Shown piece after piece: positions 26,329-57,922 of a stretch of DNA of 64,000 nt. Positions within the stretch are counted from its first letter, which is position 1. Every line of letters begins with the position of its first letter. A model generated the notes under the pieces. That model worked only from the letters and a program-made list of their open reading frames with translations. It did not search any database and was not told the DNA's origin. Both the position numbers and the translations under genes were made by a program. The stretch spans positions 8,246,001-8,310,000 of the forward strand of contig NZ_CP085193.1 of the NCBI RefSeq assembly GCF_024298965.1, in the 5' to 3' direction. This stretch comes from Streptomyces rapamycinicus NRRL 5491 (GTDB lineage Bacteria; Actinomycetota; Actinomycetes; Streptomycetales; Streptomycetaceae).

Positions 26329-26482
26329 CGTACATAGCGGGGGCGTCGGCGGCAGTCGTGGCTGGCGTGGGCGCTCCCGACCCAACACGCCCCACGTGTA
26401 CGCCCGTATCGACGGCTCAGTACCACCTCGCCGCCCAGGTCTGGGCAGTTTTGCCGCGTCGCGTGCGCGGGGAGGGGGAGAC

Positions 26483-41931: not shown

Positions 41932-41999
41932 GCGCTGGCTGCGGCAGATCGGCGTAGGACACCACCACCATCGAGATCTCCGTAGGAAGGGTGCACGCT

Positions 42000-42614: not shown

Positions 42615-42752
42615 AGCTCACCGGCAGACCTCTGGGTGCTCGCCTGCTCACGCCGACGTCACACCGCCACCATCCTGGGCGACCTCGCCGTGATCGAAGC
42701 GTGCAAAGGCCGCACCCGCTGCACTTCACCGACCGCTTCACCGGAGGACCTC

Positions 42753-43904
42753 ATGGCACTTCCCCTGCCTCGTACGTACGTCGATGTCCATATCCTGCAG
42801 ACCGTGCCCCCGGCCAACCTCAACCGCGACGACCAGGGCAATCCCAAAGAGGCGTACTACGGCGGCGTCCGCCGATCCCGGGTCTCCTCCCAAGCGTGGA
42901 AGCGTGCCACCCGCGTCCACTTCACCGAGCGGGTACCCGAGCAGGACCTGGCCACCCGCACCCGGCGTATCAACGGGGCCCTCGCCGACAAGATTGCCGA
43001 TCGGACCGGCCTGGACACCGAGGCATCGGCCCGCCTGGCGGGCGCACTGCTGGCACCGCTGAAGATCAGTGCCGGCAAGAAGGAGGGCGACACCGCCTAT
43101 CTGTTCTTCTACGGCCATCGCCAGCTCGACGACGTGGCCGCGCTCATCCACGACCGGGCTGCCGAACTCGCCGCCCTCGACGACACGGAGCTGGCCGCCG
43201 AGATCAAGCAGCTGCCGGTCCAGGAAAAATTCAGCACCAGCCACCCCATGGACGTCGCCTTGTTCGGCCGCATGGTCGCCGACATCCCGGCCTTGAACGT
43301 CGACGCGGCCACACAGGTGGCTCATGCGCTGTCCACCCATGCTGTCGAGCTGGAATTCGACTACTTCACAGCGGTCGACGACGAGACGAAGAAGGGGGAG
43401 GAGACCGGTGCGGGCATGATCGGGACCATCGGCTTCAACTCAGCCACCCTCTACCGCTACGCGTCAGTCGGCTTGCACCAGCTCTCGCGCAACCTCACGG
43501 ATCAGGAGGCGGCCGTTACCGCGGTCGAGGAGTTCGTCACTTCCTTCGCCCGCTCCATGCCCACCGGCTACGGCAATTCCTTCGCCCACCGGACTCTGCC
43601 CAGCCTGGTCGCGGTCGTGGTGCGCGACGACCAGCCGGTGAATCTCGTCTCCGCCTTCGAAGAGCCGGTCGCGACCTCCTCCGGTATCGCAGCGGCCTCC
43701 GCCCGCCGCCTCGCACGCGAGTACGCAACGGCCACCCGGGCCTGGGGAGACGCGCCGGCTTTCACTTCCCTGTGCCACACCTTCACCGACAGCGGACAGA
43801 CCACGGAGCTGCTCTCGGACACCTTCGGTGAGGCCGTCACCTTCCCCCAGCTCCTGGCCGGTCTGCGCACCTACCTCACCGACGCCGTCAAGCAGGCCGC
43901 CTGA
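42753..43904 (+). CDS. cas7e: Cas7e / Cse4 (CasC) backbone subunit (locus 2)
   Basis: This Cascade backbone subunit has 383 residues. Family stretches are VDVHILQTVPPANLNRDD, AYYGGVRRSRVSSQAWKRAT, MDVALFGRMVAD, GAGMIGTIGFNSATLYRY and YGNSFAHRTLPSLVAVVVR. The ATG at 42753 follows GGAGGACCTC; the longer open frame upstream is not conserved. A 138-base gap separates it from cas11e. Its stop overlaps the ATG of cas5e (TGATG). Confidence 0.95.
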   Translation: MALPLPRTYVDVHILQTVPPANLNRDDQGNPKEAYYGGVRRSRVSSQAWKRATRVHFTERVPEQDLATRTRRINGALADKIADRTGLDTEASARLAGALLAPLKISAGKKEGDTAYLFFYGHRQLDDVAALIHDRAAELAALDDTELAAEIKQLPVQEKFSTSHPMDVALFGRMVADIPALNVDAATQVAHALSTHAVELEFDYFTAVDDETKKGEETGAGMIGTIGFNSATLYRYASVGLHQLSRNLTDQEAAVTAVEEFVTSFARSMPTGYGNSFAHRTLPSLVAVVVRDDQPVNLVSAFEEPVATSSGIAAASARRLAREYATATRAWGDAPAFTSLCHTFTDSGQTTELLSDTFGEAVTFPQLLAGLRTYLTDAVKQAA

Positions 43905-44767
43905 TGACACCACCTTCCACCAGCTCACAAGGAGTGCAAAGCAATAGCCAGGCGGTGTTGCTGCTCCGGCTGGCCGGGCCGCTCCAGGCGTGGGGCTCAC
44001 GCAGTGCCTTCAATCGGCGTGAGACTAACGCAGAACCCACTAAATCCGGCGTAATTGGTCTGTTGGCAGCGGCAGCCGGACGTGCCCGCGAGGAACCTCT
44101 CGACGAGTTGCTTCCACTGCGCCTGGGCATCCGCGTCGACCAGCCCGGGACGCTGCTGCGTGATTACCACACTGTCAGCGACTACCGGGGCCGGGCGCTG
44201 CCCCAGGCCGGCGTCTCGGCCAAGGGCCTCCAGAGGCCGACCTCACCGCCCAAACATACCCATGTGACAACCCGCTACTACCTCCAGGACGCGGTCTTCC
44301 TGGCCGCCGTCGGTGGTTCTCGCGAGCTGATGAAGACGCTGGACCACGCCGTCCGTGCCCCCGCGTTCCCACTCGCACTCGGGCGCCGCTCCTGCCCGCC
44401 CACCCAGCCGGTATCCCTCGGGCTCCGTGAGGGAAGCCTCGAGGATGTGCTGGGGGACGAGCCGTGGCAGGCATCTCGGCGAGCCCGCGAACAGTACGCC
44501 GCTCAGTGCGGTCGCGAGCGTGACCTCGACCGTCCCCTGTATCCAGCGCGCATTGACCGCTCGGTCACCATCGAGGACCCCGAGGGCGACGATGTCCTCC
44601 ATGACTCCCCAGTGTCCTTCGACCCCTACGCCCGCAGCTTCACCAGCCGGCGCGTGCGCCACGGCTGGCTTAGCATCCCCACCGGCTTTCCACAGCCCGA
44701 CACCAACGTCACCGACGGCCAGGACGAGGCCGCCGGACATGACCCCTTCGCCCTGCTGGGCTGGTGA
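43904..44767 (+). CDS. cas5e: Cas5e (CasD) 5'-handle binding subunit (locus 2)
   Basis: This crRNA 5'-handle subunit has 287 residues. Signatures are LLLRLAGPLQAWGSRSAFNRR, PTKSGVIGLLAAAAG, IRVDQPGTLLRDYHT, RYYLQDAVFLAAVGG and LGRRSCPPTQP. Compared with loci 1 and 3 it has an insertion of about 25 residues after the RDYHT motif (SDYRGRALPQAGVSAKGLQ) and a 16-residue N-terminal extension. The start overlaps the cas7e stop and its own stop overlaps the start of cas6e. Confidence 0.94.
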   Translation: MTPPSTSSQGVQSNSQAVLLLRLAGPLQAWGSRSAFNRRETNAEPTKSGVIGLLAAAAGRAREEPLDELLPLRLGIRVDQPGTLLRDYHTVSDYRGRALPQAGVSAKGLQRPTSPPKHTHVTTRYYLQDAVFLAAVGGSRELMKTLDHAVRAPAFPLALGRRSCPPTQPVSLGLREGSLEDVLGDEPWQASRRAREQYAAQCGRERDLDRPLYPARIDRSVTIEDPEGDDVLHDSPVSFDPYARSFTSRRVRHGWLSIPTGFPQPDTNVTDGQDEAAGHDPFALLGW

Positions 44768-45579
44768 CCGCCATGACCTACCTCTCCCGGATCCGTATCA
44801 ATCCACTCCGCGCCGAGAGCCGCGTACTGCTGGCCAATCCCCGCGCGATGCACGCCGCCGTCGTGGGCGGCATCCCCGGAAGCCCGGACAGAGAGCGCCT
44901 TCTGTGGCGACTTGACGCTGACAATCCCCACCGGCCATACCTGTTCGTCCTCACCCGGTCCAAGCCCGACTGGACCCACATCGTTGAGAAGGCCGGATGG
45001 CCCGACGCCGAGGGGGAACACGCAGCCGTCCGCGACTACACCGCCCTCCTCGACCAGATCGCCACAGGACGGGAGTTCGCGTTCCGTCTGACCGCCAACC
45101 CGGTGCAGAACACTCAGAATCCGACTAGGCCCACGTCTGCCCAGGCAGCTCGCATTGCTGACGACTCAGAGGGTAAGCGCAGGCGGGGCTTCAGGATGGC
45201 CCATCGCACCGCAGCCGCACAGCTCGACTGGTTTCTCACCCGCGCTGAACGGTGGGGTTTCGAGATTCCCGTATCCCGCACCGATGCTCCTGCCCCCGGT
45301 CTGGCCCAAGCGACGGCCGACAGCGACTCCGGGGTTGAGAAGAGGGCCTGGGATCCGAACCCGGCGCGTGAGGTACGTATCACTGCCCACCGTCGCCACT
45401 CATTCACGAAGAACGGCAAAGGCCCCCGTGTCACCTTCCACAGCGTCACCTTCGAAGGCCGCCTGCGTGTCACCAACCCTGCCGCGTTCACCACCCGGCT
45501 CCTGGAAGGAATCGGCCCAGCCAAGGCCTATGGCTGCGGTCTACTCACCCTCGCCCCACTCCGAGGTCAGAAGGGCTGA
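44764..45579 (+). CDS. cas6e: Cas6e / Cse3 (CasE) crRNA endoribonuclease (locus 2)
   Basis: This repeat-cutting nuclease has 271 residues. The N-terminus TYLSRIRINPLRAESRVLL, the conserved His in RAMHAAV and the C-terminal loop GIGPAKAYGCGLLTL are all present. The GTG start shares four bases with the cas5e stop (GTGA). The ATG at 44773 begins exactly at the family N-terminus and is equally possible. It has an insertion before the final domain compared with loci 1 and 3. In a standard operon cas1 would follow. Here the operon stops and a cas3 gene faces it after 85 bases. Confidence 0.93.
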   Translation: MTAMTYLSRIRINPLRAESRVLLANPRAMHAAVVGGIPGSPDRERLLWRLDADNPHRPYLFVLTRSKPDWTHIVEKAGWPDAEGEHAAVRDYTALLDQIATGREFAFRLTANPVQNTQNPTRPTSAQAARIADDSEGKRRRGFRMAHRTAAAQLDWFLTRAERWGFEIPVSRTDAPAPGLAQATADSDSGVEKRAWDPNPAREVRITAHRRHSFTKNGKGPRVTFHSVTFEGRLRVTNPAAFTTRLLEGIGPAKAYGCGLLTLAPLRGQKG

Positions 45580-45664
45580 TGAGCTGACAATGGGGGAAAG
45601 GGTGGCCTTCAGGTGCTTCTTTGTAACGCCACGTTAAATACGCCGCGTTCCCTTCCACCGCCCC

Positions 45665-48610
45665 TCAGGCAACGGGGCCGTCGTCCATGAGCCCGAGAAC
45701 GGTGTCGAAGCGTAGCCGCCGTCCGGAAAGGACAGAGGTTCCATCGGCCTCGAGAACCAAAGCGCGGCTACGGCCCAGCCAAGGGTGCTTGTCCCAGCCA
45801 GGCGGGACATGGAGGGCTTCGGCCACCCCGCGGCGGCAACTCGCGGGGAGTCTCACCGTGCCTGCGAGAACGTCGTTGACCCATTCTTCATCCGGGAGGG
45901 CGCCGCCCTCCGCCAGAACATTTCCTGAAAAAGTCCGGTATCTCCTGCCATCCCGCCTCAGGAGGACGGCCTCCACGCCCGGATCCCCGTCCCGTACCAA
46001 GGCGGTCAGGCCGCTGTCGCCACTGCTGGGAGGAACGGTCAGGTAATGGAGACCGGCCAGCGTCGGCCCTTCTTTGTCACCGCGTCTTGTCAGAAGGTGA
46101 TGTGAGGCATTCTGTGCTCGTTTACGCTGTTCATCTTCCCAATGCCATCGGGCTGACTGTGCTGCGTCCCGCCACGGTGGCGGAGTCACATCCTCGCTGC
46201 CGTATCCGGCCGCCACGAGCGCGGGAATGTCCTTCGGGACGCTCCACGCGCCCTGTCGTCCGGCAGCCCTGAACACCAAAGCCGCCGTGCGCAGCAGCAG
46301 ATGGCGGTCGTAGAGGGATTCGGTACACGCAAGGAACCGTGGGATGCCACGGCCCCCCGCAGGCGGGTCGATGTCGTCTGCACCAGGGGTGGTGCCCCCG
46401 GAGGCGTATCCCGTGACGATCACGCGTGGCGAGGCAAGCCGAGCAGGGCGGAGCAGTTTGTCACCGCGGTGCAGACGGCCGATTCTCTGCAGCAGCAGGT
46501 CGATCGGGGCCATGTCTGTGATCAGAAGGTCCACGTCGACATCAAATGCCTGTTCAGCCACCTGGGTGGCGACCACGACGAATCGAGTGGGCCGCTCCCG
46601 TCCCGGGCCATCTTGTTGCGGGGCTAGCTGGTGCAGGCAGTGCGCCGTGCGATCGGCGCGTATTCCGAGGGGGAGCTGCTCGTGCAGCAGTACCACTTCG
46701 TCACCGAAGCGCTCACGCAACGCGGTGCAGAGTGTCTGGGCCCGCGCCACGCTGTTGCGGATGACCAGGGCGCATCCGCCGTGTGTCAGTTCCTCCTCGA
46801 GCCGATCGGCGACAGCAGAGTCGGCGGCGTCCTGTGCCATCCGACGCAGAGCAGGATCGGCATGTGGTTGCGGGACCGGCTCCGGCATGAGTTCGACCGT
46901 GAGGGGTAGGTCCGCACGTCGGCTCACACAGGATGGTGCGGTGGAACGGTGTCCGGTGCCTTCCGGCGCTCTCCAGGCCGCAGTGATGGAAGGGTAGCCC
47001 CAAGGGTGGCTGAGATCGTCAGCCGTGTACTCCTCACGTCCTGCGGCCCCCGCGAGATAGGCGTCCACCAGAGCCTGACGCTGCGCGGCCGGCAGCGTCG
47101 CGGACAGCAGTACCACAGGTACGCCTGCCTGGCCGAACCAGCGCAAGCCCTCCAGCAGGAACTGCGAAGAGTAGACGTCGGTGGCGTGGACCTCGTCGAG
47201 CACGACGACTTTGCCCATCAGCCCTGCCATACGGAGCATCACGAACTTGGTGCGGGTCGTGGCGTACAGCAGCTGGTCAAGAGGCGCGACGACGAAGGGG
47301 CACAGAAGCCCGCGCCCGTACCCGAAGAACCACTCGGCAGGTACCTGCGATCCCGATGGTTCAGCGTGTGCCTGCCCACTGCCTCCGGGTACGCACCGAC
47401 CGCCCTCCGCGGGCTCTCCGCATTCGCCGACTGCGCCGAGCCGAGCCTCGGGTGGTTCGCTCAGCAGCGCGCTCCAGTCCTTGTTGAGGATACGTTTTCC
47501 GTGCAGCAGGGAGACGCGCGCGGCCAAGTTCGAGTCAATGCGGCTCACCCACTGTCTGACCTGCCCGAACATGGGATCATGAGTCGCCCATTCCGGCATA
47601 CCGACAAACACGCCGTCCGCGCCGAATTTCGCAGCCAGAACTTCCGCCGCCATCAGCCCGGCCCAGGTCTTGCCGTCTCCCATAGGAGCCTCGACGATCA
47701 ATAGCCCCGGAGCCTCCATCTGCCGTGCCGTCTCCACGGCCAGCACCTGCGATGGACGCGGCTCGCACCCGAACCGCCGCACGAAAGCGTCGGATTCGGG
47801 CTCGGGCAATTCCCCCCAGCCACCCCGCAGGCCGATCTTGGCCCATGCTTTGCTGGCACGATCCCGCGCGCGGGCGAAGCTCACCTCACCCAGAGAGTCG
47901 ACACCGGGGAACTGCTTGGAACCGCTGGCGATCCAGTCCGCCATCACGACAAACCCGCTCAGGTGCAACTGGGCAGCCCGCGTCGGCACCAGCACAGGCG
48001 CGAGGGCCGCAAACGAGCCCAGCTCCAGCTCCTCGGTCAGGCGCTGAACGAGGGCCCGCTGCACTGTCGCCCAGCGCCCGTCGCCCTCCAGCTGGCCACG
48101 CGCTCTGGGGTCCGGCCTCAGGGCACTCGCGACGGGAAAGAAGCCATGATGGCCTGCCACAATCGGCCATACCCAAGCGATCTGCTCGTCCGGCCATTCA
48201 GCATCCCTGAGCAGCCATTGCAGCAGGTGTCCTCCGGCACGCCCGTGATGCCAATCGAACCGCTGGGCGGTCGGCTCATGCCAACGCAGCCCAGCCGCCC
48301 GTACCGCCGCAGCCTCGGCCTGCCACCTCCTCTGGAAGGCTGGAGTGGCCTTCCCGCAGTCGTGCACTCCGCAGAGCCACACGAACAACCCCCGCCCCCT
48401 GCCCGTACCTCCGGCGATCTCGTCAAGCAGTCGCCGGGTGGACGGAGCCAAAAACCGCTCCCACATGACGTCGGCGACGGCCGCGGTGTCCAGCATGTGC
48501 GACAGCAGCAGATTCATTGTCCCGTCGGCATGGCTGGGCGTCTTTCCCACCAAGACACCCAGCGCCGCGAGGACGTCCAGCCCGTCCTGCGGCGTCGAAC
48601 CGTTGGCCAT
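45665..48610 (-). CDS. cas3: Cas3 helicase-nuclease, stand-alone, antisense to locus 2
   Basis: This interference nuclease-helicase unwinds and degrades DNA marked by Cascade; 981 residues. The HD nuclease motif is CGVHDCGKATPAF with WHHGRAGGH and AGHHGFF. Helicase motifs are EAPMGDGKT (Walker A), VVLDEVHATDVYS (a DEVH rather than DEAH box), LLSATLP, VVVATQVAEQAFDVDVDLL and QRIGRLHRG. The ATG at 48610 follows AGAGGGGGAAC; the open frame extends 16 codons further. It is convergent with cas6e, so it is expressed separately from Cascade. Adjacency makes it the likely partner of the locus 2 Cascade, which has no other cas3. Confidence 0.95.
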   Translation of the reverse strand: MANGSTPQDGLDVLAALGVLVGKTPSHADGTMNLLLSHMLDTAAVADVMWERFLAPSTRRLLDEIAGGTGRGRGLFVWLCGVHDCGKATPAFQRRWQAEAAAVRAAGLRWHEPTAQRFDWHHGRAGGHLLQWLLRDAEWPDEQIAWVWPIVAGHHGFFPVASALRPDPRARGQLEGDGRWATVQRALVQRLTEELELGSFAALAPVLVPTRAAQLHLSGFVVMADWIASGSKQFPGVDSLGEVSFARARDRASKAWAKIGLRGGWGELPEPESDAFVRRFGCEPRPSQVLAVETARQMEAPGLLIVEAPMGDGKTWAGLMAAEVLAAKFGADGVFVGMPEWATHDPMFGQVRQWVSRIDSNLAARVSLLHGKRILNKDWSALLSEPPEARLGAVGECGEPAEGGRCVPGGSGQAHAEPSGSQVPAEWFFGYGRGLLCPFVVAPLDQLLYATTRTKFVMLRMAGLMGKVVVLDEVHATDVYSSQFLLEGLRWFGQAGVPVVLLSATLPAAQRQALVDAYLAGAAGREEYTADDLSHPWGYPSITAAWRAPEGTGHRSTAPSCVSRRADLPLTVELMPEPVPQPHADPALRRMAQDAADSAVADRLEEELTHGGCALVIRNSVARAQTLCTALRERFGDEVVLLHEQLPLGIRADRTAHCLHQLAPQQDGPGRERPTRFVVVATQVAEQAFDVDVDLLITDMAPIDLLLQRIGRLHRGDKLLRPARLASPRVIVTGYASGGTTPGADDIDPPAGGRGIPRFLACTESLYDRHLLLRTAALVFRAAGRQGAWSVPKDIPALVAAGYGSEDVTPPPWRDAAQSARWHWEDEQRKRAQNASHHLLTRRGDKEGPTLAGLHYLTVPPSSGDSGLTALVRDGDPGVEAVLLRRDGRRYRTFSGNVLAEGGALPDEEWVNDVLAGTVRLPASCRRGVAEALHVPPGWDKHPWLGRSRALVLEADGTSVLSGRRLRFDTVLGLMDDGPVA

Positions 48611-48724
48611 GTTCCCCCTCTGCGCCGCGCAGTTCCTCTGGCGATACCACATGGGCAATTACCTGCGGGGTGACATCATGCCGCTGTGAGAGGCGACGCC
48701 ACCCCGCCGAACAGGGCGATCAGC

Positions 48725-49930
48725 ATGAGTTTCAGCCACGACCTGATGACGGATTGGATCCCCGACGCTCTCGGCGCCGCCGCCGTCACCCAGGCGCTGG
48801 CCGATGGAACCCTGTCTGCGCCGCCTCAGCTCGACATCGGGTGGCTTCGGGTCCCACTCGCCCGGCGCACGGAAGACATACCCGTCGTGGACTCGACCGC
48901 ACGCGCCCACATGCACCTCCTGGTCGAACGATCCTTACACCACCACCGACCACACCCTGAGGTACTCAGCTACCGCTCAACAGACTGGGACTACCGCCGC
49001 GCCTACCGCGCGAGACGGGACCGAATGCACGCGCTCGGACGCCAGACGGAGCTACCGCTCGTACTGAAACTCGACATCCACCGATTCGGGGAGTCGCTCC
49101 CTCTGCACGTGCTGCTCGATGCGCCCTGGATGACCGACACGCTCGCCCAGCAGCTGACGGAACTGCACCACAAGACCGGCCGCTCGCTCTTTCCCGGGCA
49201 TCGCTGGGCCAATCGGCTCGGCACAGCAGCCTTACACCCGATCGACGCGCGACTCACCGCGATGGCGCCGGATCGGTGGATCCGCTGGGGCGACGACTGG
49301 CATGTCTTCGTTCACGACACCGCCGAAGCTGAGCATGTCCGTGCCGCAGTAAAAGCCGGACTCGAAGCCCTCGGGCTTCGCCTGTCAGCGGAGAAGAGCA
49401 CCACCGAACCGGTGGCCACCGTATTCGCCGGGCCAGCACGCGATGTCGCAGGGAACCCACCAGAGGTGTGGCGCCGCGGCATACAAAACAACGACGCGCG
49501 CGCCCTCAGATACGCCCTGCCCCGCATAGACCCCGAAGCGGAGGTGTCCCGGCGCATCCCCGGAATCGTGCGCGCGCAGCCGACACTGCTGCCGCGTGCC
49601 GTCTACTACCTCGACCGCGCCGTGAACACACCGGCAGGCCATGAGGCCGTGCGGGAACTGTTGGAAGCAGCCCATCCGGATCTGTTTTCGGTCGCCCGAC
49701 TGCTCGCTCTCGCCGGTCGGCACCAAGAAGTAGCCTCGTATGTCCCCGACAGATTGCTGGCCCTGGCCGCCGACTGCGGGATCGCCGCACTGCAGGAACT
49801 GGCAGCGCGCGTCGCCGTCTGTACCGGACGCCGGGATGTGTTGCCTGAACCATCTCAACGCCTGCACCAGTGGATCGCCCAGGGAGCGCATGTCCGGCAT
49901 CATCCGCCCTCTGTGGCTACCCTCCTGTGA
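48725..49930 (+). CDS. Divergent Abi-like reverse transcriptase with helical C-terminal domain
   Basis: The 401-residue protein has a reverse-transcriptase palm. Motif A is LVLKLDIHRFGESL (Asp117). A motif-B-like stretch is FPGHRWANRLGTAALHPID, motif C is RWIRWGDDWHVFV (Asp190-Asp191 in WGDD instead of YADD), and motif D is LGLRLSAEKST. All three catalytic aspartates are kept, so polymerase activity is plausible. Residues of about 275-400 are all-helical, as in abortive-infection (Abi) and other defence reverse transcriptases. No maturase, Cas1 fusion, retron RNA or diversity-generating repeat was seen. The ATG at 48725 is preferred; GTG 48686 would add 13 residues. It is divergent from cas3 and 51 bases before the nucleotidyltransferase gene, probably one transcript. 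Substrate and product unknown. Confidence 0.7.
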   Translation: MSFSHDLMTDWIPDALGAAAVTQALADGTLSAPPQLDIGWLRVPLARRTEDIPVVDSTARAHMHLLVERSLHHHRPHPEVLSYRSTDWDYRRAYRARRDRMHALGRQTELPLVLKLDIHRFGESLPLHVLLDAPWMTDTLAQQLTELHHKTGRSLFPGHRWANRLGTAALHPIDARLTAMAPDRWIRWGDDWHVFVHDTAEAEHVRAAVKAGLEALGLRLSAEKSTTEPVATVFAGPARDVAGNPPEVWRRGIQNNDARALRYALPRIDPEAEVSRRIPGIVRAQPTLLPRAVYYLDRAVNTPAGHEAVRELLEAAHPDLFSVARLLALAGRHQEVASYVPDRLLALAADCGIAALQELAARVAVCTGRRDVLPEPSQRLHQWIAQGAHVRHHPPSVATLL

Positions 49931-49981
49931 CGCTGGCGCTCTACCGAGCCGGGTGCGGACACATAACCAAGGAGGCACCGA

Positions 49982-50887
49982 GTGGACGGTCGACCCGCAC
50001 GATGGGATGGGGCGGGCAAAGACGCGCTTCCCACAAGTGACCGCCAACTGATCCAATCCGTAGCAGCGGTCCTCTCGAGTATCGATCAACTACTGCCACC
50101 GGATGTCTGGCATCTCAAGGGGTCCGCGGCGATCCTGGGCTGGATAGGCCCCACGGCACGCCTGCCGAACGATGTGGACCTGGCCATGTCGGCGAGCGCA
50201 GGGGAGTTGCTGTTGTCCACCTCCGAACTGCCGCCCGGCCCGAAGGGGGAGCGACTTCAGCTACTGCGCTCGGAGCCTGTCGTGTTCAGCTCACCTGACA
50301 AAGCCACGGTGTACCGCGCGTTGGTGAAGATACAGTCGGGGGAGGACCACGAGCAGGTGCTGCTCAACGTCCTGCTGGTACCGGACTCCGAAGTCGCCGA
50401 CGACACACGAACCGCACTGCTGGACTTTCCTGCCTGGCCTTCCCCGGTCACGGTGCCGACGGCGACCCTCAGCCGGTGCCTGGCCCAGAAGCTGTTGCGC
50501 TACACACGACAGCGTGGCGGTGGCAAAATCAACACGCGCTGGACCGACCTCATCGACTTCCTGCTGGCTGCCGAAAGCCCAAGCGCTCCCCAGCTGCTCC
50601 TTGATGCCGTACGCAGTGATGTCGCGCTGGAGTTCACGGCCATGGGGCGCCAATGGCCGACACACCTCCCGCCACCGCCGACGGAATGGCTGGATTTCTG
50701 GGACACGGCAACCTTCCGCTATGGGCTGGCATTCGGCCGCCTGCCCGAGGCGGTAGACCAGCTGGCCCACTTCTGGAGTCCAGTACTGCAGACACCAGTG
50801 GCCGCGTACGGTCCAGTAACCGCCCAGGCAGCGGAGGACGCGCCGCAGCTGTGGTCATGTACCAGATGGCAGTGGGCAACCCCATGA
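49982..50887 (+). CDS. AbiEii-like nucleotidyltransferase
   Basis: The 301-residue protein resembles the DNA-polymerase-beta superfamily nucleotidyltransferases of the AbiEii/AbiGii type, the toxin half of bacterial anti-phage systems. It shows LKGSAAILGWIG (for the family's GGTAL-like helix), the metal-binding NDVDLAM (Asp64 and Asp66 region), and a later LAQKLLRYTRQRGGG plus RWTDLIDFLLA, the place of the family's KLxA and RDLxD elements. The GTG start has AAGGAGG six bases upstream. No AbiEi-type antitoxin is adjacent. It follows the reverse transcriptase, and the opposing operon ends nine bases after it. Role in defence is inference. Confidence 0.65.
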   Translation: MDGRPARWDGAGKDALPTSDRQLIQSVAAVLSSIDQLLPPDVWHLKGSAAILGWIGPTARLPNDVDLAMSASAGELLLSTSELPPGPKGERLQLLRSEPVVFSSPDKATVYRALVKIQSGEDHEQVLLNVLLVPDSEVADDTRTALLDFPAWPSPVTVPTATLSRCLAQKLLRYTRQRGGGKINTRWTDLIDFLLAAESPSAPQLLLDAVRSDVALEFTAMGRQWPTHLPPPPTEWLDFWDTATFRYGLAFGRLPEAVDQLAHFWSPVLQTPVAAYGPVTAQAAEDAPQLWSCTRWQWATP

Positions 50888-50895
50888 CCTGCCCG

Positions 50896-52260
50896 TTACG
50901 TGTCCGCCGCACTCTTGTCGTGCCCGGAGTCGAAGATCAGGGCAAGCCGAGCATGTGCACTGGACGGCAGATGCATATGCCACCAGCCACGCCACCGCAG
51001 GGCATGCGCCAGATGGTGGAAGCCCGGCGTTCCGGGCCCCGCTTTCCAAAGACCGGAGAGGAATTCAACGACCGAGTCGGCAGCATCGATACTGAGCGGT
51101 TCACCGAACACATGCAGGACGCGCTCTCGGTGCACTGTGCCTTTGAGGGTCTTGGTCACATGCAGGCTGAAGTGTGCGTGGCGGCGGGCAGTGCCGAGTC
51201 CTGCTTCGCCCAGCCGCGCCAGACCGGCTCCACTGTGCATCTGGCCGGCGGTCCAATCGTTAGCTGTGGTCACTGCCGTCCTCAGCAGCGCCGCATCCGA
51301 GACGATGCCGGACAGACCATCGCCCAGAGTCGCGAAGAGCGTGCCTCCGGCAGCGGCCGCGTCGCTCATCGTCCGAAGGTGTCCCAGCAGCAACGACTCC
51401 CGGTGAACGCGTAGCTGGTAGGCCCGGCGCAGCACATCCGCCAGCGGCAGGGATCCGTTCAGCCACATCGTGGCCAGGGGAAGCATCTGATGCGCGTTGC
51501 CTTCCGTAAGACGCGCGCCCCACCGCCGTCGGCAGGGGGTGCCCCATTCGATGTCGTGGACATCGCTCACCACGTAGATACCCCATTGCGGGGGTGCCGC
51601 TGAGAAGGCTTCCCAGGCGTCTGCCGACTGCAGTCCAGGAAAACGTGGATCTTCTTCCGGCCCAGCCCCTAAGCCCGTCTCCCGGCTGCCCAGTGGACGG
51701 ACGAGTACACCTGCCAGCAGCGAGGCACCCTGCCTTACGGAGAGGAGCCTCGGGACTTGCCCCAGCACGTCGTCGGCTCGGAACGGTTGCAGGTCCGGCC
51801 AATCCCGGCGCATCCGCGCGGCCATCGATATGCCGTAACAGGCACGCAGTAACCTCTCGCGCCGCGCATCACTGTCCCCGGCAAGCGATATGTGGTCCAA
51901 TGCCCAGCCGTGCCGGACACCACCACCCGCAGGCCCGGATCCCAGCAAATCCTCGAAGACGCCTACCGGAGGGGAATGCTTCCCAGCCCGGACCAGGACC
52001 AGATCCTTGCCGTAATACGAAGGATTCCACTCGGCGCCGAAGTTTCGACCGATGGTGTTCAAGCTGTGACGCACCCGCTCAAGGCCCGCCTCGTGGTCCC
52101 CGCTGTCCTCCACACTGGCTCGCAAGGCGCTCGTGACAACAACCACAGTCGCCTGCCGGCGATCAGCCTGGGCGAAGTGGGCCAGCACATCGCCGGTGTC
52201 CACACACCCGGACGGGTACCCGGGAGCATGCCGCGGTGGCCACGAGAACGCAGGCATCAT
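50896..52260 (-). CDS. Unknown protein, last gene of three-gene cassette operon (454 aa)
   Basis: I do not recognise this 454-residue protein. It is soluble-looking, rich in Ala, Arg and Trp, with possible motifs ATVVVVTSALRASVEDSG, IGRNFGAEWNPSYYGKDLVLVR, WGIYVVSDVHDIEWGTP and FSLHVTKTLKGTVHRER. No transmembrane segment, nucleotide loop or nuclease motif is clear. The ATG at 52260 was chosen because it overlaps the stop of the preceding gene (ATGA); the open frame extends 102 codons further inside that gene. It is thus translationally coupled to the membrane protein. It ends nine bases from the convergent nucleotidyltransferase gene. Confidence 0.65.
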   Translation of the reverse strand: MMPAFSWPPRHAPGYPSGCVDTGDVLAHFAQADRRQATVVVVTSALRASVEDSGDHEAGLERVRHSLNTIGRNFGAEWNPSYYGKDLVLVRAGKHSPPVGVFEDLLGSGPAGGGVRHGWALDHISLAGDSDARRERLLRACYGISMAARMRRDWPDLQPFRADDVLGQVPRLLSVRQGASLLAGVLVRPLGSRETGLGAGPEEDPRFPGLQSADAWEAFSAAPPQWGIYVVSDVHDIEWGTPCRRRWGARLTEGNAHQMLPLATMWLNGSLPLADVLRRAYQLRVHRESLLLGHLRTMSDAAAAGGTLFATLGDGLSGIVSDAALLRTAVTTANDWTAGQMHSGAGLARLGEAGLGTARRHAHFSLHVTKTLKGTVHRERVLHVFGEPLSIDAADSVVEFLSGLWKAGPGTPGFHHLAHALRWRGWWHMHLPSSAHARLALIFDSGHDKSAADT

Positions 52261-53600
52261 CTCCGCCTCCGCCGTCTGCGGCGGAAAAGGTCCACAAACA
52301 GCCTGCGCAGCCCCGGGAAGAACGTCACAAGGACCACCGTGGCCACCATAGTGACGGATAAGGTCCGCCACAGCAGCGACGCTCCCGCTTGGGGCAGTCC
52401 TTGCCAGACAGCAAGTCCCGTGGTCAGCGGCAACCCTACGGCCGCGAGAAGTCCCAGGATGGCGTTGGTCGTCTCCGTCTCTGCGGATTGCACCTGGCGG
52501 GACAGCTCGCCTAGGTCGTTGATCAGGCTCTGCAGTGACTGCTGCAAGCCAGCACTCTGTTGCCAAGCACGCATCATGGCGTCAACGGTGCCTTGCCGAC
52601 CGAAGTCAGCTGTCCAGTAGCTGCGGCGGAAGACAAGCAGATCCCTCTCCAGCTGCGCCACTTTCCGCCGCCGGGGTTCGTGCTCCCCGATCCGCGCCAC
52701 TTCGTGGCCGAATGCGTCCAACACGATCTGCTGCAATCGGGCCAGAGCCAAGGCATCCGCATACAGCGTCGTCAGGTGATAGCTCGTGCCGTCGTAGTAG
52801 TTGAGCGGAACGTCGCGACCCGGGTCCCGCTCGGTGCCCACCAGCGTCAGCCCACGGACTCCCAGCACACCACGCACCTTGGTAGGAAGTGGCAGGCGCA
52901 TACCCTGGAGCTGCTCAAGAGCCTCAGGACCCGGTGGATAAAGCGTCGCGTGGTGCATGTGCCACAGCCACTGGTCGATGGAGTTCCAACCCTGCTGCAA
53001 ACGCCCCGGATGCAGCCGCAGATGACCGCTGCGAGGAGTGACGAGTGTGCAGTGCACCGCCTCACGCTCAGTGACTGCGATCCGGCATCCCGGCGGTAAT
53101 TGTTGTGCCACCCAAGCACGATGGACACCCTGCCCATGATGCTCATCGACATCGGCGCACTCCTGTAGCGTTTTCGGGAGTCGCGCGGGCGCATCTGGAG
53201 GCAGAGCGCCGTGTAGCAGTGCCACGCCGTTCGCCTCCGCCGGTGAATCCATCTCCTTCAAAGCGCCGAGTGTCGCATCGTTGAGGCGAACCAACTCAAC
53301 CGCCGATAGCTGGAATCGGGCGGGTGACTCTGCCGTATCGGGCAATTCCCGATGCCAGCGCACCTGCGGACCCCACAGGAGTGGGCCGAGACGGCGCTGC
53401 GTATACGCCGCACGGCGGGAGGCGCTGGACACCACCTCGTCAGGTCGGCCAACACGCCAGCGCCTTTCCAACGGCCCCGGACGGAAGGGAGCAGCCGGAG
53501 GCTCTGAGATGTGGACAGCCACGATCAGGACCGTATCTCTGCGGATCAGCGCGAGCGGATCGTCACCCCCAGCCAAGCTTGGATGACGCACCCGGCTCAT
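52257..53600 (-). CDS. Protein with C-terminal helical stalk and two transmembrane helices (447 aa)
   Basis: This 447-residue protein has an N-terminal globular part (about 1-290). A long amphipathic helical region follows (about 290-375: RRKVAQLERDLLVFRRSYW, LQQSLQSLINDLGELSRQVQS). Two transmembrane helices come next (about 381-403 GLLAAVGLPLTTGLAVW and 409-431 TLSVTMVATVVLVTFF), and the protein ends in an Arg-rich tail. This layout resembles CorA-type channels and membrane-perforating effectors of defence systems, but the CorA GMN signature is absent and I cannot name a family. It is coupled by four-base overlaps (ATGA) to the genes on both sides. A membrane-targeting effector role is a hypothesis. 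Confidence 0.65.
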   Translation of the reverse strand: MSRVRHPSLAGGDDPLALIRRDTVLIVAVHISEPPAAPFRPGPLERRWRVGRPDEVVSSASRRAAYTQRRLGPLLWGPQVRWHRELPDTAESPARFQLSAVELVRLNDATLGALKEMDSPAEANGVALLHGALPPDAPARLPKTLQECADVDEHHGQGVHRAWVAQQLPPGCRIAVTEREAVHCTLVTPRSGHLRLHPGRLQQGWNSIDQWLWHMHHATLYPPGPEALEQLQGMRLPLPTKVRGVLGVRGLTLVGTERDPGRDVPLNYYDGTSYHLTTLYADALALARLQQIVLDAFGHEVARIGEHEPRRRKVAQLERDLLVFRRSYWTADFGRQGTVDAMMRAWQQSAGLQQSLQSLINDLGELSRQVQSAETETTNAILGLLAAVGLPLTTGLAVWQGLPQAGASLLWRTLSVTMVATVVLVTFFPGLRRLFVDLFRRRRRRRR

Positions 53601-54310
53601 GCGAAGCAGTCCAACGCATCGCGAAGATAGCCAAGCCGCTCAGCCTGACTCACATGCCGCCACCGCTGCCGTTCCTCGGGAACGTCGCCTTGTGTCAGGA
53701 CCCGCGCGTACCGTTTCAACGGTGCACCCCTGGCGACAAGGGTCATCGTCCCGGGCACTGCCCTCGCCTGATGAAACGTGAACGCTGACATTCCATAGCG
53801 CTCTCCAGCCGTCACCACTCTCGTGGGCCGAACCGCCACGTCCACCCGACCCTCATTGCGCGCGTCGAAACGGAAACCTCCCTCGTGGGGTTGGTAACGG
53901 ACCACCCGATGGATCGAAGACTGCGGCGCCGCTGCCGCCTGCCCGTCGTCCGCCTGTGCGACGTCCAGCACGGTGTTGTATAAGGCTCCCCGCAACACGG
54001 TGGACGAGAAGTCCCAACGATGATCGTGAGCCTGTGTGTCCTCAATTCCCGTTAACCAGACATGCAGAAACAACCGTCCCTCACTGTGAGTAACCACCCC
54101 CAAGGGCAGCTTCACAAACCCGTTCGGGTGCGCCACAGCCTGCCTCATCACAGGAGCCCGGAACGTGGCGTCATAGGAGTCGTTCAGTGCGGCTAGGAGC
54201 GCGGCCCGGGCCATCTGACGGTAGACGATCGCCTTGTCAGCTTCGCGGTGATGGGGTGCCAATTCTGTTCGAGAAAAGCAGATCCGGTTTGGCCGCACAG
54301 CGCTCCTCAT
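53597..54310 (-). CDS. Cupin-like protein, first gene of three-gene operon
   Basis: The 237-residue protein has an apparent beta-barrel core. HVWLTGIEDTQAHDHRWDFSS carries a metal-ligand-like HDH, and TVLRGALYNTVLDV and a later YGMSAFTFHQARAVPGTMTLVARG follow in the spacing of cupin motifs 1 and 2. It could be a small-molecule enzyme or a sensor. The C-terminal 30 residues are helical (VSQAERLGYLRDALDCFA). Its stop overlaps the start of the membrane-protein gene (ATGA). A ten-base inverted repeat lies 60-120 bases upstream. The family assignment is tentative. Confidence 0.55.
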   Translation of the reverse strand: MRSAVRPNRICFSRTELAPHHREADKAIVYRQMARAALLAALNDSYDATFRAPVMRQAVAHPNGFVKLPLGVVTHSEGRLFLHVWLTGIEDTQAHDHRWDFSSTVLRGALYNTVLDVAQADDGQAAAAPQSSIHRVVRYQPHEGGFRFDARNEGRVDVAVRPTRVVTAGERYGMSAFTFHQARAVPGTMTLVARGAPLKRYARVLTQGDVPEERQRWRHVSQAERLGYLRDALDCFA

Positions 54311-54369
54311 CTCACAGAAATCACTACCGACATCACCTGCTGCGTGGCAAGGTTACTGAGATTCCACGC

Positions 54370-54430
54370 GTGATGTCGCCCGCGGCATCCGCTTGAACTG
54401 CGACGATCGTCGGCCATGGCGCGACATCAC
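54370..54430. promoter_or_regulatory. Widely spaced inverted repeat GTGATGTCGC / GCGACATCAC
   Basis: These two perfect ten-base complements are 41 bases apart, 60-120 bases upstream of the cupin-like gene on the minus strand. This could be a two-site operator for the cassette operon or the mark of an insertion edge. The rest of 54,311-54,632 shows no gene; a minus-strand frame ending at 54,469 (GIITAADLFAAQRPYTIYSD) may be the end of a lost gene. Confidence 0.4.
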
Positions 54431-54632
54431 ACAAAGACCATCAGTAGCTGCGCCCCAAGCGAGAACAGTCACTCGCCCGCTTCGTCCGAGTAGATAGTGT
54501 ATGGCCGTTGGGCGGCGAACAGGTCTGCGGCAGTGATTATGCCCCTACGGCGGAGTGGCGGCACGAGCGATCCGTATCCTTCCGGCGTCGGCAGTTGTCG
54601 ATCAAGGAAGTGCCCTTGTCGTGGGGCCATAC

Positions 54633-54775
54633 ATTCTGTCGAATGCCGTAGGAGGGGGCAGAGCCGCCGATCCGGACACGGATCGTGTCGTTCTACACAG
54701 CGACGGCGGACGCCCGGTGTCCGCCGGGCGCAACTACGCCGAAGATGAAGGCTCGGACATCGAAGAAGCGCTCTG
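54633..54775 (+). pseudogene. cas1e 3' stub
   Basis: Only the last 47 or so codons of a cas1 gene remain, from ILSNA to RNYAEDEGSDIEEALW. They align with the end of locus 3 Cas1 (LLPNA ... RNYAESDGPDSDEVFW). The stop codon is changed to TGG, so the frame runs on into cas2. Everything upstream, including all catalytic residues, is gone and replaced by the cassette. Confidence 0.85.
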
Positions 54776-54841
54776 GTGGCCGTCATCGTCCTGACCAATT
54801 GTCCGCCAAGTCTTCGCGGCTTCCTCACCCGCTTGCTGGCG
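54776..54841 (+). pseudogene. cas2e 5' stub
   Basis: About 22 codons from a GTG start read VAVIVLTNCPPSLRGFLTRLL, the Cas2 N-terminus. The remaining 95 or so codons and the whole leader are missing: the first repeat of array 4 starts 27 bases later. Together with the cas1 stub it proves that a complete cas1-cas2-leader-array unit once stood here. Confidence 0.85.
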
Positions 54842-54868
54842 AACCGCACTCATCATGGGGGACTGGAA

Positions 54869-57759
54869 TTGCTCCCCGCGCCCGCGGGGGTGGTCCCAGG
54901 TGGCCGAACGCGCCGCGCACCGTCTGGAGCTGCTCCCCGCACACGGGGATGGTCCCGACTCGCCGAGCTCGACGGCCAGGACGTACTGCTGCTCCCCGCA
55001 CCCGCGGGGGTGTTCCGCCGGTGTGGTGGAGAAGGGGACGGACACCGGGGTCCTCCCCACCGACGCGGGAGTGTTCCGCTCAGGACCACCATCGAGTACC
55101 GGGAACAGCCGTGCTTCCCGCCAACGTGGGGGTTCCGATCACGGCATGGGAGACAGGGCGTGTCGTCGCATGCTCCCGGTCGACGTGGGGTGTTCCGGGA
55201 ACCTCGTGCTCGCGGCCCATGATGGCGTAGTCCTCCCCACCGACGTGGGGGTGTTTCCGGTGCTCGTCATCGACGCCGACCCTAAGTCCGGGTCCCTCCC
55301 CGCCGATGTGGGAGTGTTTTCCGACCGGTCCGAGGGGCGCAGCCTGGGCGCCCCTGTCTCCCCGCCGACGTGAGGGTGTTCCGGAGGCCGACGTGGGGTG
55401 TTCCACGCTTCTTTCACGGGCACCACCGGCAACTACCGTGCTCCCCGCCGACGCGGGGGTGTTCCGCTCGCGCCGGTCACCTTCGCGAGCGTCTTCTCGT
55501 GCTCCCCACCGATGTGGGGTGCTCCGCTGCCATCCGGATGGCCCGAGCGGAGAAGACCGTCCTCCCCGCCGACGTCCCCGGGGGTGCGGATCGTCCTCCC
55601 CGCCGGCGCGGGGATGGTCCCCCTCTCTACGGAGCGGCAACGGTCATCACCTTCTGATCCCCGCACCCGCGGGGATGGTCCCGAGACGCTGCTGTGTCCC
55701 GGTCAGGTGGAGGCGCTGCTCCCCGCACCTGCGGGGATGGTCCAGCGGCCAGCGGCCGGGTACGGTGGCGGGCCTGCTGTTCCCCGCACCCGTGGGGATG
55801 GTCCCTCGGTGACGCCGCGGCCGGCGAGCATGTCGTCCTGCTCCCCGCACCCGCGGGGATGGCCCCTGCGCCCCGGACAACCTGCGGGCGATGTGCCACT
55901 GCTCCCCGCACCCGCGGGGATGGTCCCGGCACCGGCTCCGCGTCGATCGGCACGACGTACTGCTCCCCGCGCCCGCGGGGATGGTCCCACCGGGACGAGC
56001 GCCGGGGCGATGGCACCGATCTGCTCCTCGCACCGGCGGGGATGGTCCCCTCCTCGCGACCCGGGTCATGGCCGCCATCCGCTGCTCCCCGCACCCGCGG
56101 GGATGGTCCCGAAGCCGGCGCAAGGCGGTTCGGGGTTCTGTACTGCTCCCCGCACCCGCAGGGGTGGTCCCTACTCAGAGCTGAGGGCGGAGACAGCAGT
56201 CTCCTGCTCCCCGCACCCGCGGGGATGGTCCCCCGACCGATGGGTGTCCGGCCTTCCAGTTGGACTGCTCCCCGCACCACCAGCGGGGATGGTCCCGGCA
56301 AGGTTGTCGAGCGCGGGGACGAACAGGGCTGCTCCCTGCGCCCGCGGGGATGGTCCCTCGGTGTGTGCGGGGGGGTGCGGGCGCTACGAACTGCTCCCTC
56401 GCCCGCGAGGATGGTCCCGATGGCCAGCCAGGTCGATGCCAGTCTCCTCTCTGCTCCCCGCGCCTGCGGGGATGGTCCCCGCCCTTCCTGGCCGCGCGGA
56501 GAGGGGACCTTCTGCTCCCCGCGCCCGCGGGGATGGTCCCGTGAGCACGCTCAGCACCGCGGCGTTGATCGCCTGCTCCCCACACTCGCGGGGATGGTCC
56601 CCAGAAAATGACGGGGTCCCGCGCGATGAGCGATTGGTCCCCGCACCCGCAGGGATGGCCCCGAAGGCCGCGAAGGCGCCGCCTTCTACTTCAACTGCTC
56701 CCTGCACCCGCGGAGATGGTCCCTGCGAGTTCACGTACAACACCTTGTGCCGGTACTGCTCCCCGCAGCTGCGGGGATGGTCCCGACCAGAACAGCGGCA
56801 GCTTCTTGGCGTCGATCTGCTCCCCGCATCCGCGGAGCTGGTCTCCGGTCGTGAGCGTCAGCAGCGGCCTGACGGGCCTGCTCCCCGCACCCGCGGGGAT
56901 GGCCCCGCCATCAAGCCCGCGTTCAACGCGATCGCGGCCTGCTCCCCGCGCCCGCGGGGATGGTCCCACCAACACGCTCCCGGTGACCGCCAGCTACGAC
57001 TGCTCCGCGCACCCGCGGGGATGGTCCCTCCACGGTGTGGCGCAGCGGGACCTCCAGCGCCTGCTCCCCGTACCCGCGGGGATGGTCTCAGCCGCGTGCC
57101 GGGGGAGTGGGTCGCCCGCATCTGCTCCCCGCACCCGCGGGGATGGTCCCTGGAGCAGGCGCGCAAGAAGGCGACCACCGCCCTGCTCCCCGTACCCGCG
57201 GGGATGGTCCCATCTGCCGGATCGCAGACCTGCCCGACCTCTACTGCTCTCCGCACCCGCGGGGATGGTCCCGACCCGGCGGGGCAGAGCGGGGGCAACA
57301 CCGGCTGCTCCCCGCACCCGCGGGGATGGTCCCGGCGGGATCTGACGCTCGACCGGTGGCGGAAACTGCTCCCCGTACCCGCGGGGATGGTCCCCGTCGA
57401 GAAGGTCCAGGAGATGTTCGGCAACGCTGCTCCCCGCACCCGCGGGGATGGTCCCTGCATCCCGGTCGTGCTGAAGGTGGCGCCCAACTGCTCCCCGCAC
57501 CCGCGGGGATGGTCCCGGGCCCGTCTACATTGGAACATGGCTGGCTACTGCTCCCCGCGCCCGCAGGGATGGTCCCACCAAGGCGCAGGGCGAAAAGGTC
57601 GTCCAGGCCTGCTCCCCGCACCCGCGGGGATGGTCCCGCGGCCCTGGGTGATGTCCACTGCGTCGTCGCCTGCTCCCCGCATCCGCGGGGATGGTCCCTG
57701 GTGGCGATGCTCGCCTCGGTCGGCCCCGGCCTGCTCCCCGCACCCGCGGGGATGGTCCC
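54869..57759 (+). CRISPR. CRISPR array 4, leaderless, with a diverged 5' block
   Basis: About 49 repeat units. The first two are of the standard class and the third (54989) is a hybrid whose 3' end reads GGTGTTCCG. From 55050 to 55621 the repeats belong to a diverged form (for example GTGCTCCCCGCC then GACGCGGGGGTGTTCCG at 55438), with uneven length, a partial unit at 55384-55405 and two units almost touching at 55559-55621. From 55654 to 57759 about 35 standard CTGCTCC...ATGGTCCC repeats follow at 61-base period, with scattered point changes and one 32-base repeat near 56269. It reads left to right. With no leader on the left, acquisition and perhaps transcription are likely lost. Confidence 0.93.
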
Positions 57760-57922
57760 GTTCCGTGGGCGTGTACGGAACTTTGTGTAAGTCGCCCTGG
57801 GGGTGACCTGCTCGCGAACGGCGAGGTAGAGCACCTTCAACGCGGCCTGCTCGGAGGGGAAGTGTCCACGGTTGCGGGTGGCTTTCCGCAGCCGTGCGTT
57901 GATCGACTCGATAGCCCGCATG
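57760..57922 (-). mobile_element. IS256 (Mutator)-type transposase fragment
   Basis: About 54 codons of a transposase C-terminal region, reading MRAIESINARLRKATRNRG and then HFPSEQAALKVLYLAVRE, end in TYTKFRTRP against the last repeat of array 4. The RGHFPxEQAAxKVLYL stretch is typical of IS256-family transposases. Its 5' side touches the ATG of cas5e of locus 3. The element is broken at both ends and cannot move. It marks the point where cas3-cse1-cas11e-cas7e of locus 3 were lost. Confidence 0.75.

Follow-up and report, generated by a model that had tools for sequence, protein, structure and literature searches.

Five conserved genes accompany the effector genes and cas3 of a reverse transcriptase-linked type I-E CRISPR variant in Streptomyces

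The locus described here lies in a 64-kb window of the Streptomyces rapamycinicus genome, the whole stretch of DNA that was analysed; gene positions are those of the list of open reading frames (ORFs) used in the earlier note. It contains the effector operon of a reverse transcriptase (RT)-linked type I-E variant (40171..45579, + strand) with relatives in nine other loci, composed of casA (40171-41931), casB (41991-42614), casC (42636-43904), casD (43904-44767) and casE (44764-45579). Whereas casE is recognised by TIGR01907, the identity of casA to casD follows from the earlier note, the gene order and the conserved neighbourhood, without a family-model scan. The casA-E block is inverted in the window with respect to seven of the ten genomes compared. 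It is followed on the minus strand by cas3 (45665..48658), coding for the HD nuclease-helicase, with matches to Pfam Cas3_HD (8e-45), Cas3-like_C_2 and Cas3_C and to PADLOC Cas3e (2.4e-182). Its likely start is the ATG at 48610, about 115 nt upstream of the divergently transcribed RT gene (48686..49930, + strand), for which the ATG at 48725 is the likely start, as the PADLOC profile begins there (residue 14). A gene for an AbiEii/MenT-like nucleotidyltransferase (NT; 49982..50887, + strand) starts 51 nt downstream of RT. Convergent to the RT-NT operon runs a second operon on the minus strand, consisting of c237 (53597..54310), m447 (52257..53600) and u454 (50896..52260), in which neighbouring genes overlap by 4 nt each and which is preceded by a free stretch of approximately 310 nt. 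Next comes a cas1/cas2 remnant (54621..54838, + strand) made up of the last 52 codons of cas1 and the first 22 codons of cas2: positions 54621-54776 match the last 52 Cas1 residues (60%), and 54773-54838 the first 22 Cas2 residues. To the right of this stub, repeats begin at about 54870 and form a degenerate CRISPR array (54870..57759, + strand); a second array with degenerate repeats is located to the left of casA (38540..39665, + strand). Gene content and positions reported in the earlier note for this region of about 9 kb are borne out by the ORF list, its sizes of 454, 447 and 237 aa are correct for the starts used, and the protein matches bear out the cas1 3′/cas2 5′ stub which it had placed at the right edge by the array.

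The window thus carries both casA-E and cas3, and its repeats of 29 nt and spacers of about 32 nt are those of type I-E. Genes cas1-cas2, which also characterise the type, are missing from the locus: only a stub is left in the window and in S. antioxidans, and intact copies beside the module were seen in one genome (G036) alone. Membership in type I-E nevertheless holds because I-E loci without cas1-cas2 are known, according to the accessible text of PMC8730458.

The RT matches the PADLOC model PDLC01135, named 'RT associated with distinct I-E system from Streptomyces', over its full length (model 1-396 of 396, E 1.3e-202) and contains a WGDD motif. In an alignment of the window protein with 35 of 44 clusters (five of the nine clusters dropped were of odd length), the motif A Asp (D130), the first motif C Asp (D203) and the motif D Lys (K237) are present in 36 of 36 sequences, and D204 in 32 of 36. 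Similarity in the palm is common to this enzyme and the DRT and Abi (UG) RTs. However, its matches to RT_UG22, UG36 and UG20 (PADLOC, E 2e-8 to 7e-8) are partial and far weaker than that to PDLC01135, so that its best match is not a named UG or DRT family, and it is found with I-E genes. Assignment to group II introns was rejected in view of the weak match to TIGR04416 (E 6.8e-6, 25 bits vs a cut-off of 300), and so was a plasmid or phage origin, with 0 matches in 72,556 plasmid and 50,697 phage records. RT model matches were obtained in 72 of 392 Streptomyces genomes, 65 of them at E 2.3e-8 or weaker and with partial coverage of the RT. No Cas1 or Cas6 domain was matched in the RT protein (Pfam, NCBIfam, PADLOC). 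The RT-Cas1 fusions of type III CRISPR likewise place an RT inside a CRISPR locus but differ in this respect; moreover, the window locus has a type I effector, and its RT is located beside cas3 and outside the adaptation module. Rfam retron models at gathering scores found no match in the window in a general Rfam scan, and with the cas3 and NT starts so close on either side of RT there is not much space for a separate retron-like RNA gene.

NT resembles nucleotidyltransferase toxins. It scores 27.2 bits against PF08843 (cut-off 22.5), matches PADLOC AbiEii (3.5e-20), and its profile reaches the toxin nucleotidyltransferase structures 6j7n and 6y5u (E 0.004-0.008). Residues G47, S48, D64, D66 and K170 are invariant in seven of seven sequences and are likely catalytic. 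Enzymes of the AbiEii/MenT kind add nucleotides to tRNA or other RNA and thereby stop growth. Although NT corresponds to the AbiEii nucleotidyltransferase of AbiE type IV toxin-antitoxin systems, neither RT nor u454, its two neighbours, matched an AbiEi antitoxin in Pfam or PADLOC; instead of an antitoxin gene, NT adjoins an RT.

The three proteins of the opposing operon are less easily assigned. The reading frame of u454 is open beyond 454 aa, up to 556 aa, and its fold is without assignment: neither the window protein nor the family profile (34 of 48 clusters aligned) matched an entry in Pfam, NCBIfam, PADLOC or the PDB, and in PHROGs only phrog_38863 appeared, at 0.033. Residues 274-432 of m447, i.e. 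its C-terminal part, match PADLOC CorA-like (1.5e-10), and hydropathy reveals two hydrophobic stretches near the C-terminus as in CorA-type effectors, while the N-terminal part had no match. CorA proteins have a GMN motif. None was seen in the m447 alignment, and no CorA family was matched in Pfam, where the sole match was Bestrophin-like and below cut-off (0.0059); the PDB yielded nothing. Plasmid records contained one weak match to m447 (31% over 30% of the length), and weak relatives occur in 40 further genomes among the 392. One distant relative (L075) has as its partner a NACHT plus FGE-sulfatase protein according to Pfam, the one neighbourhood with such an outcome; proteins near two others (L078, L081) had no Pfam match. 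Membership of m447 in the CATRA family was rejected after two distant relatives had been tested, neither with a Pfam or NCBIfam match. The match of its C-terminal part to PADLOC CorA-like models is what m447 has in common with the CorA-like effectors of type III CRISPR (PMC10600005, in the part available), but no cas10 was seen in the window locus. For c237, profile matches are weak but agree on a cupin/cysteine-dioxygenase-like label: Cupin_2 was found in 3 of 38 family members and CDO_I in 1 of 38, in PHROGs an unnamed family (4.9e-9) came ahead of phrog_4786 'cysteine dioxygenase' (4.8e-6), and the PDB gave only a cupin (E 1.8). H95, H97 and H180, possible ligands of a cupin three-His metal site, are invariant in all 38 aligned sequences (the window and 37 of 58 clusters). 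Resemblance of some of the five proteins to defence proteins, as proposed earlier, is upheld by sequence profiles.

Comparison of ten genomes chosen by RT, the window and nine others, revealed the five non-cas genes together with cas3 and the I-E effector genes in all ten, in the same order except for one flip of casA-E. RT, NT, u454, m447, c237, cas3, casA, casC, casD and casE were found, at least in pieces, in nine of nine fetched loci and casB in eight; it was not found in the decayed S. philanthi locus (L041), whose broken genes entered the comparison as individual tblastn fragments without repair. L037, L038 and L042 were left out because their lengths equal those of L031, L035 and L034, so that each pair was taken as one contig. 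In genome-wide searches with RT, u454 and m447 of 392 Streptomyces genomes drawn from a larger group, RT (E<1e-150) and u454 occurred in the same seven genomes and neither in the other 385, and close m447 orthologues (E<1e-240) were confined to these seven RT carriers. Pairwise protein distances for 11 genes in nine loci, without the decayed S. philanthi locus, correlated with r of 0.85-0.99 (permutation p ≤0.0006 for the seven pairs tested). With starts picked to fit those of the window, the 4-nt overlap of c237 and m447 is present in nine of nine loci and that of m447 and u454 in eight. dN/dS of the five genes was 0.19-0.43 between the window and S. antioxidans, a comparison with few changes, and 0.33-0.54 between G031 and G154; the cas genes, all computed except casB, gave 0.13-0.35. 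With 8000 candidates scored per protein search, there were at least 44 RT, 48 u454 and 58 c237 clusters, of which RT and u454 coincided on 21 contigs taken as the same by their equal length, RT and c237 on 23, u454 and c237 on 21, and all three on 16. Since the gene set recurs in nine other genomes, it is more than chance, and the five genes seem to belong permanently to a CRISPR variant that has been little studied, rather than to have been inserted at random. The comparison shows casABCDE, cas3, RT, NT and c237-m447-u454 to be inherited as one unit in a distinct I-E variant found mainly in Streptomyces. Scattering of the five genes in other genomes had been named beforehand as evidence against their belonging together; the comparisons above show that they stay together.

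The earlier note had considered the five genes a separate cassette sitting in place of cas1-cas2. Their co-inheritance with the I-E effectors and cas3 contradicts this, and so does G036, in which intact cas1-cas2 follow just beyond c237. The same genome indicates that the window stub is a remnant of both genes, so that 'in place of' is only partly correct. These assignments rest on the Cas1 of locus 3 and the Cas2 of locus 1 in the locus comparison and, for the stub, on the G036 proteins as well. In four of seven carrier genomes (G064, G213, G031 and G154; G213 is a draft of about 350 contigs), cas1 (TIGR03638, PF01867) and cas2 (TIGR01873) were not found. cas1-cas2 thus appear to be an optional neighbour of the RT-linked I-E unit that has decayed in the window.

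Carriers of this kind suggest that RT-NT, with or without the other three genes, might support adaptation independent of Cas1 and Cas2, the RT copying RNA or DNA into spacers and NT tailing the ends. Such a role would fit an array of 20 repeats with three distinct forms in G064, as well as the small arrays, about 20 per genome, that lie dispersed over the retrieved stretches of G031 and G154. In G154 some of them are uniform, one with 11 of 12 identical cores, those of G031 being less so, and the two genomes have just one doubtful spacer in common although several arrays lie at matching places. The array to the left of the S. antioxidans module is also uniform, with 11 of its 12 cores alike, and has no spacer in common with the left array of the window; this species does, however, have cas1 at another place in its genome. 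For a Streptomycetaceae I-E group with tnsB-tnsC, a non-Cas enzyme has been proposed to have taken over adaptation (PMC8730458, accessible text). That group likewise combines interference genes and arrays without cas1-cas2; in the window locus, however, RT and NT are present, no TnsB or TnsC was recognised among the genes, and one carrier has kept cas1-cas2. The window arrays themselves argue against such a role. The right RT-side array has 27 distinct forms among 39 repeats (54850-57800; 23 of 35 in the stretch 55593-57759) and the left one 16 of 19, whereas the locus 3 array beside intact cas1-cas2 is uniform (9 of 45). The right RT-side array of the window has 4 of its 35 spacers in common with S. 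antioxidans and the cas1-side array 0 of 44, and in the latter species the right RT-side array is again degenerate (15 of 18) and the cas1-side array uniform (1 of 17). Other G064 arrays are degenerate, e.g. 12 distinct forms of 14, G213 has few repeats (14 vs 5 in the control), and G036 has cas1-cas2 beside the module. Moreover, 12 of 61 genomes with at least 20 repeat matches had no cas1 match, nine of which also lack RT, in a hand count with up to six candidates scored per genome, G158, G337 and G359 counted as positive on cas1 fragments only, and G375 55% complete. G031 and G154 could be accounted for if their arrays were once longer and have lost different spacers, or if cas1 disappeared only recently. 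Taken together, we regard Cas1-independent adaptation by RT-NT as unlikely, and a takeover of I-E spacer acquisition by RT, NT and the three-gene operon, with G031, G154 and G064 still renewing their arrays, as very doubtful. A link between RT and dispersed arrays was rejected because genomes without RT, too, often show matches on both strands, so that such arrays are no RT signature. Searched against phages, three array stretches gave only weak matches (best E 2e-3).

Defence roles outside CRISPR are known for enzymes of the AbiEii and DRT types. RT-NT and c237-m447-u454 might therefore be two unrelated, CRISPR-independent defence units in an island by the I-E genes. Their convergent transcription, which could reflect two functional units in one locus, is compatible with this, as is an extra gene between NT and u454 in L035, L036 and L041. 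Against it stand the constant association with the I-E variant in the ten RT-chosen genomes, the identical distribution of RT and u454 and the correlation of distances with the cas genes, which make such an island quite unlikely. A one-off insertion displacing cas1-cas2 in this strain, suggested by the stub at the right edge, can practically be dismissed, as the gene set occurs in nine other genomes with and without adjoining cas1-cas2, and S. antioxidans has the stub too.

Parts of this locus have been described before. In the accessible text of the respective papers, an RT beside Streptomyces I-E effector genes was reported in 2017 and termed unexpected for a DNA-targeting type I CRISPR (PMC5513706), its WGDD motif and its lack of a group II maturase domain in 2018 (PMC6013744), and the adjoining cas3 and AbiEii in 2021 (PMC8934634). 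The window RT belongs to the same family with the same motif, and strain MUSC 164, named in that work, has a near-identical locus (L037). The statement that no system with this gene set was described is therefore too broad for RT, cas3 and AbiEii, for which a PADLOC model also exists, but still applies to c237-m447-u454, of which no description as a conserved part was found in a search covering few subscription papers. Relative to the accessible parts of these reports, our study adds the conserved three-gene operon, the co-inheritance of 11 genes and carriers free of detected cas1/cas2.

We consider the best explanation, to which we give about even chances with its mechanism included, to be that the five genes form an accessory module which obligately belongs to a distinct I-E variant and probably provides it with a backup, either an arrest arm or a membrane effector arm. 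As in an ordinary I-E system, crRNA-guided Cascade and Cas3 would attack the invader. During infection, RT and NT would modify nucleic acids: RT would make DNA, and NT would add nucleotides to tRNA or other RNA, halting growth in the manner of AbiEii/MenT. Probably co-translated, c237, m447 and u454 may form a membrane arm with CorA-like m447 as its pore or anchor and with a trigger that c237 and u454 produce or detect. The outcome would be dormancy or abortive infection once interference fails.

The complete co-inherited set of RT, NT and three further genes represents a testable unit. Either it would equip a type I system with an abortive or membrane effector arm of its own, as found in type III, or it would allow memory to be acquired without Cas1, and carriers without detected cas1/cas2 make the latter directly testable.

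Three I-E loci lie in the window, and the earlier note concerned the second of them (locus 2; the stretch noted spans 45580-54842). Here, casA-E on the plus strand are followed by cas3 on the minus strand, a reverse transcriptase (RT) and an AbiEii-like nucleotidyltransferase (NT) on the plus strand, and u454, m447 and c237 (the trio) on the minus strand. This layout, proposed from the sequence alone, matched our checks of open reading frames, start codons and family models. A remnant comprising the last 52 residues of cas1 and the first 22 residues of cas2 (54621-54838) immediately precedes the right array. The genome measures 12.47 Mb, and the named relatives at locus 2 are all Streptomyces. 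In locus 1, a single continuous ORF of 1633 aa (26396-31297) contains cas3-like and casA-like sequence and, judged by eye, is a possible fusion.

Sequence comparison indicates that casA-E, cas3, RT, NT and the trio have very probably been inherited as one unit. Genome-level searches of 392 Streptomyces genomes covered RT, u454 and m447. The RT profile matched 72 genomes at E 0.001 or better. Seven of these matches were strong (E<1e-150); in the remaining 65 genomes only part of RT was matched, with E no better than 2.3e-8. The same seven carriers contained m447 at E<1e-240, and u454 was present in exactly these seven and in none of the 385 others. We compared the window with the neighbourhoods of the six other carriers and with those of S. 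alboflavus, S. flavofungini and S. philanthi. casA, casC, casD, casE, cas3, RT, NT, u454, m447 and c237 occurred together in all nine fetched loci; casB was not found in the S. philanthi locus (L041). This locus is decaying, with casA, cas3, u454 and c237 in pieces only and RT, NT and m447 each in one piece. The casA-E block has one orientation in three loci (window, S. antioxidans and genome G064) and the opposite one in seven, and this flip accounts for the antisense cas3 seen in the window. With the start codons chosen, c237 and m447 overlap by 4 nt in 9/9 loci, as do m447 and u454 in 8/9. Pairwise distances of the 11 proteins correlate at 0.85-0.99 across nine loci, and in close pairs the dN/dS ratios of the five non-cas genes, some of which rest on few changes, resemble those of cas genes. 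Indirect evidence of linkage comes from protein-database clusters (44 for RT, 48 for u454 and 58 for c237) on contigs of identical size, counted as 21 for RT and u454, 23 for RT and c237, 21 for u454 and c237, and 16 for all three. The suggestion that the five genes belong together was thus borne out in the carriers and in every fetched locus. The accompanying history, in which the cassette replaced cas1-cas2, proved wrong, since the gene set is conserved and intact cas1-cas2 lie beyond c237 in one of the compared loci (G036 only). The stub is present in the window and in S. antioxidans; neither cas1 nor cas2 was found beside the module in the remaining fetched loci, and genome-wide searches with two cas1 models and one cas2 model found neither gene in four of the seven carriers.

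RT matches the PADLOC model 'RT associated with distinct I-E system from Streptomyces' over its whole length (E 1.3e-202), a model that presumably derives from Shmakov and colleagues, 2018. When the window copy was aligned with 35 of the 44 database clusters, all 36 sequences had the Asp of motif A, the Lys of motif D and the first of the two Asp in W-x-D-D; the second of these was Gly in four. NT belongs to the AbiEii-type nucleotidyltransferases: its match to PF08843 exceeds the cut-off, and its profile reaches two toxin NTase structures, 6j7n and 6y5u, with E 0.004-0.008. The cupin-like c237 has three His that are invariant in an alignment of 38 sequences, made up of the window copy and 37 of 58 clusters. 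Hydropathy places two hydrophobic stretches at the C-terminus of m447, which matches PADLOC CorA-like models (1.5e-10); a Pfam scan did not find the CorA domain in it. u454 matched no known family in Pfam, NCBIfam, PADLOC or PDB. When its window copy was aligned with 34 of 48 clusters, numerous His, Asp and Lys positions were the same in all 35 sequences, which suggests that it is an enzyme. In three loci (L035:11485-13446, L036:11485-13470 and L041:12222-14018), NT and u454 are separated by an additional gene encoding about 600-660 aa. It carries a QRTAGNATVTRML-like stretch, which may resemble leaders of contractile-injection cargo.

The window arrays beside the RT module are degenerate: the left one (38540..39665) has 16 different forms among 19 repeats, the right one (54870..57759) 27 among 39. 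The array beside cas1-cas2 of locus 3, by contrast, is uniform, with 9 forms among 45 repeats. Four spacers of the right array are common to S. antioxidans; none were found in common for the left and cas1-side arrays. Together, these observations suggest that the module does not feed its own arrays in the window. Results against this reading come from other carriers. In S. antioxidans, 11/12 cores are alike in the array to the left of the module; this uniformity leaves the balance unchanged because the genome has cas1 elsewhere. G064, with no cas1 or cas2 match, has one array of 20 repeats in only three forms, but degenerate arrays too. G031 (S. buecherae) and G154, likewise without a match, each have about 20 small arrays in the stretches fetched; several occupy matching places, yet only one doubtful spacer is common, and some G154 arrays are uniform, those of G031 less so. 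This pattern could also come from loss of different spacers out of longer ancestral arrays or from recent cas1 loss. By hand count, 61 of the 392 genomes have at least 20 repeat matches; RT occurs in three of the 12 without a cas1 match and in three of the 49 others, so that the association is not decisive. The small arrays of G031 (L107-L118) and G154 (L128-L135) hold 2-12 repeats, are spread chromosome-wide on both strands and have about 75-95 nt of upstream sequence in common; by eye, several are close to genes for helix-turn-helix regulators. Genomes with cas1 also contain repeats dispersed over both strands. In one G154 array, 85 nt (L132:2255-2339) are 73-74% identical to Streptomyces phages (Cumberbatch and relatives); as the match is longer than one spacer, repeat-like phage sequence may be involved.

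Published work describes an RT beside I-E effector genes in several Streptomyces, its function being called unexpected (PMC5513706), and its WGDD motif and distance from group II introns in strains including MUSC 164 (PMC6013744). Among three I-E-linked RTs, cas3 was adjacent in 3/3 and AbiEii in 2/3; the authors question how one more RT, from Streptococcus, had been assigned before (PMC8934634). I-E variants with TnsBC and STAND in Streptomyces (PMC8730458) and the I-E system of S. avermitilis (PMC4762764) are also on record. The literature searched yielded no paper recognisable as a description of the trio together with RT; the probable source of the PADLOC model may contain more.

Comparison established co-inheritance, gene order and conserved residues that are likely catalytic; the membrane stretches come from hydropathy. 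RT would make DNA, NT might modify RNA, and the trio could act as a membrane effector arm, all of them jointly backing up Cascade-Cas3 by growth arrest. Some support for such an arm comes from weak relatives of m447 in 40 genomes besides the carriers, one of which lies beside a NACHT and FGE-sulfatase protein. In four of nine fetched neighbourhoods (L073, L075, L079 and L080), a protein of about 890 aa with a similar N-terminus is encoded near the distant relative; the L075 copy, the one scanned, has both Pfam domains. The two genes may form a conflict system in which the CorA-like protein is the membrane partner. Judged from sequence, the backup-arrest mechanism is tentative and rather doubtful; for the inherited unit and the mechanism combined we see about even chances. 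The five-gene set itself is real, conserved and under-described, and it belongs to a CRISPR variant that is already known yet unexplained.
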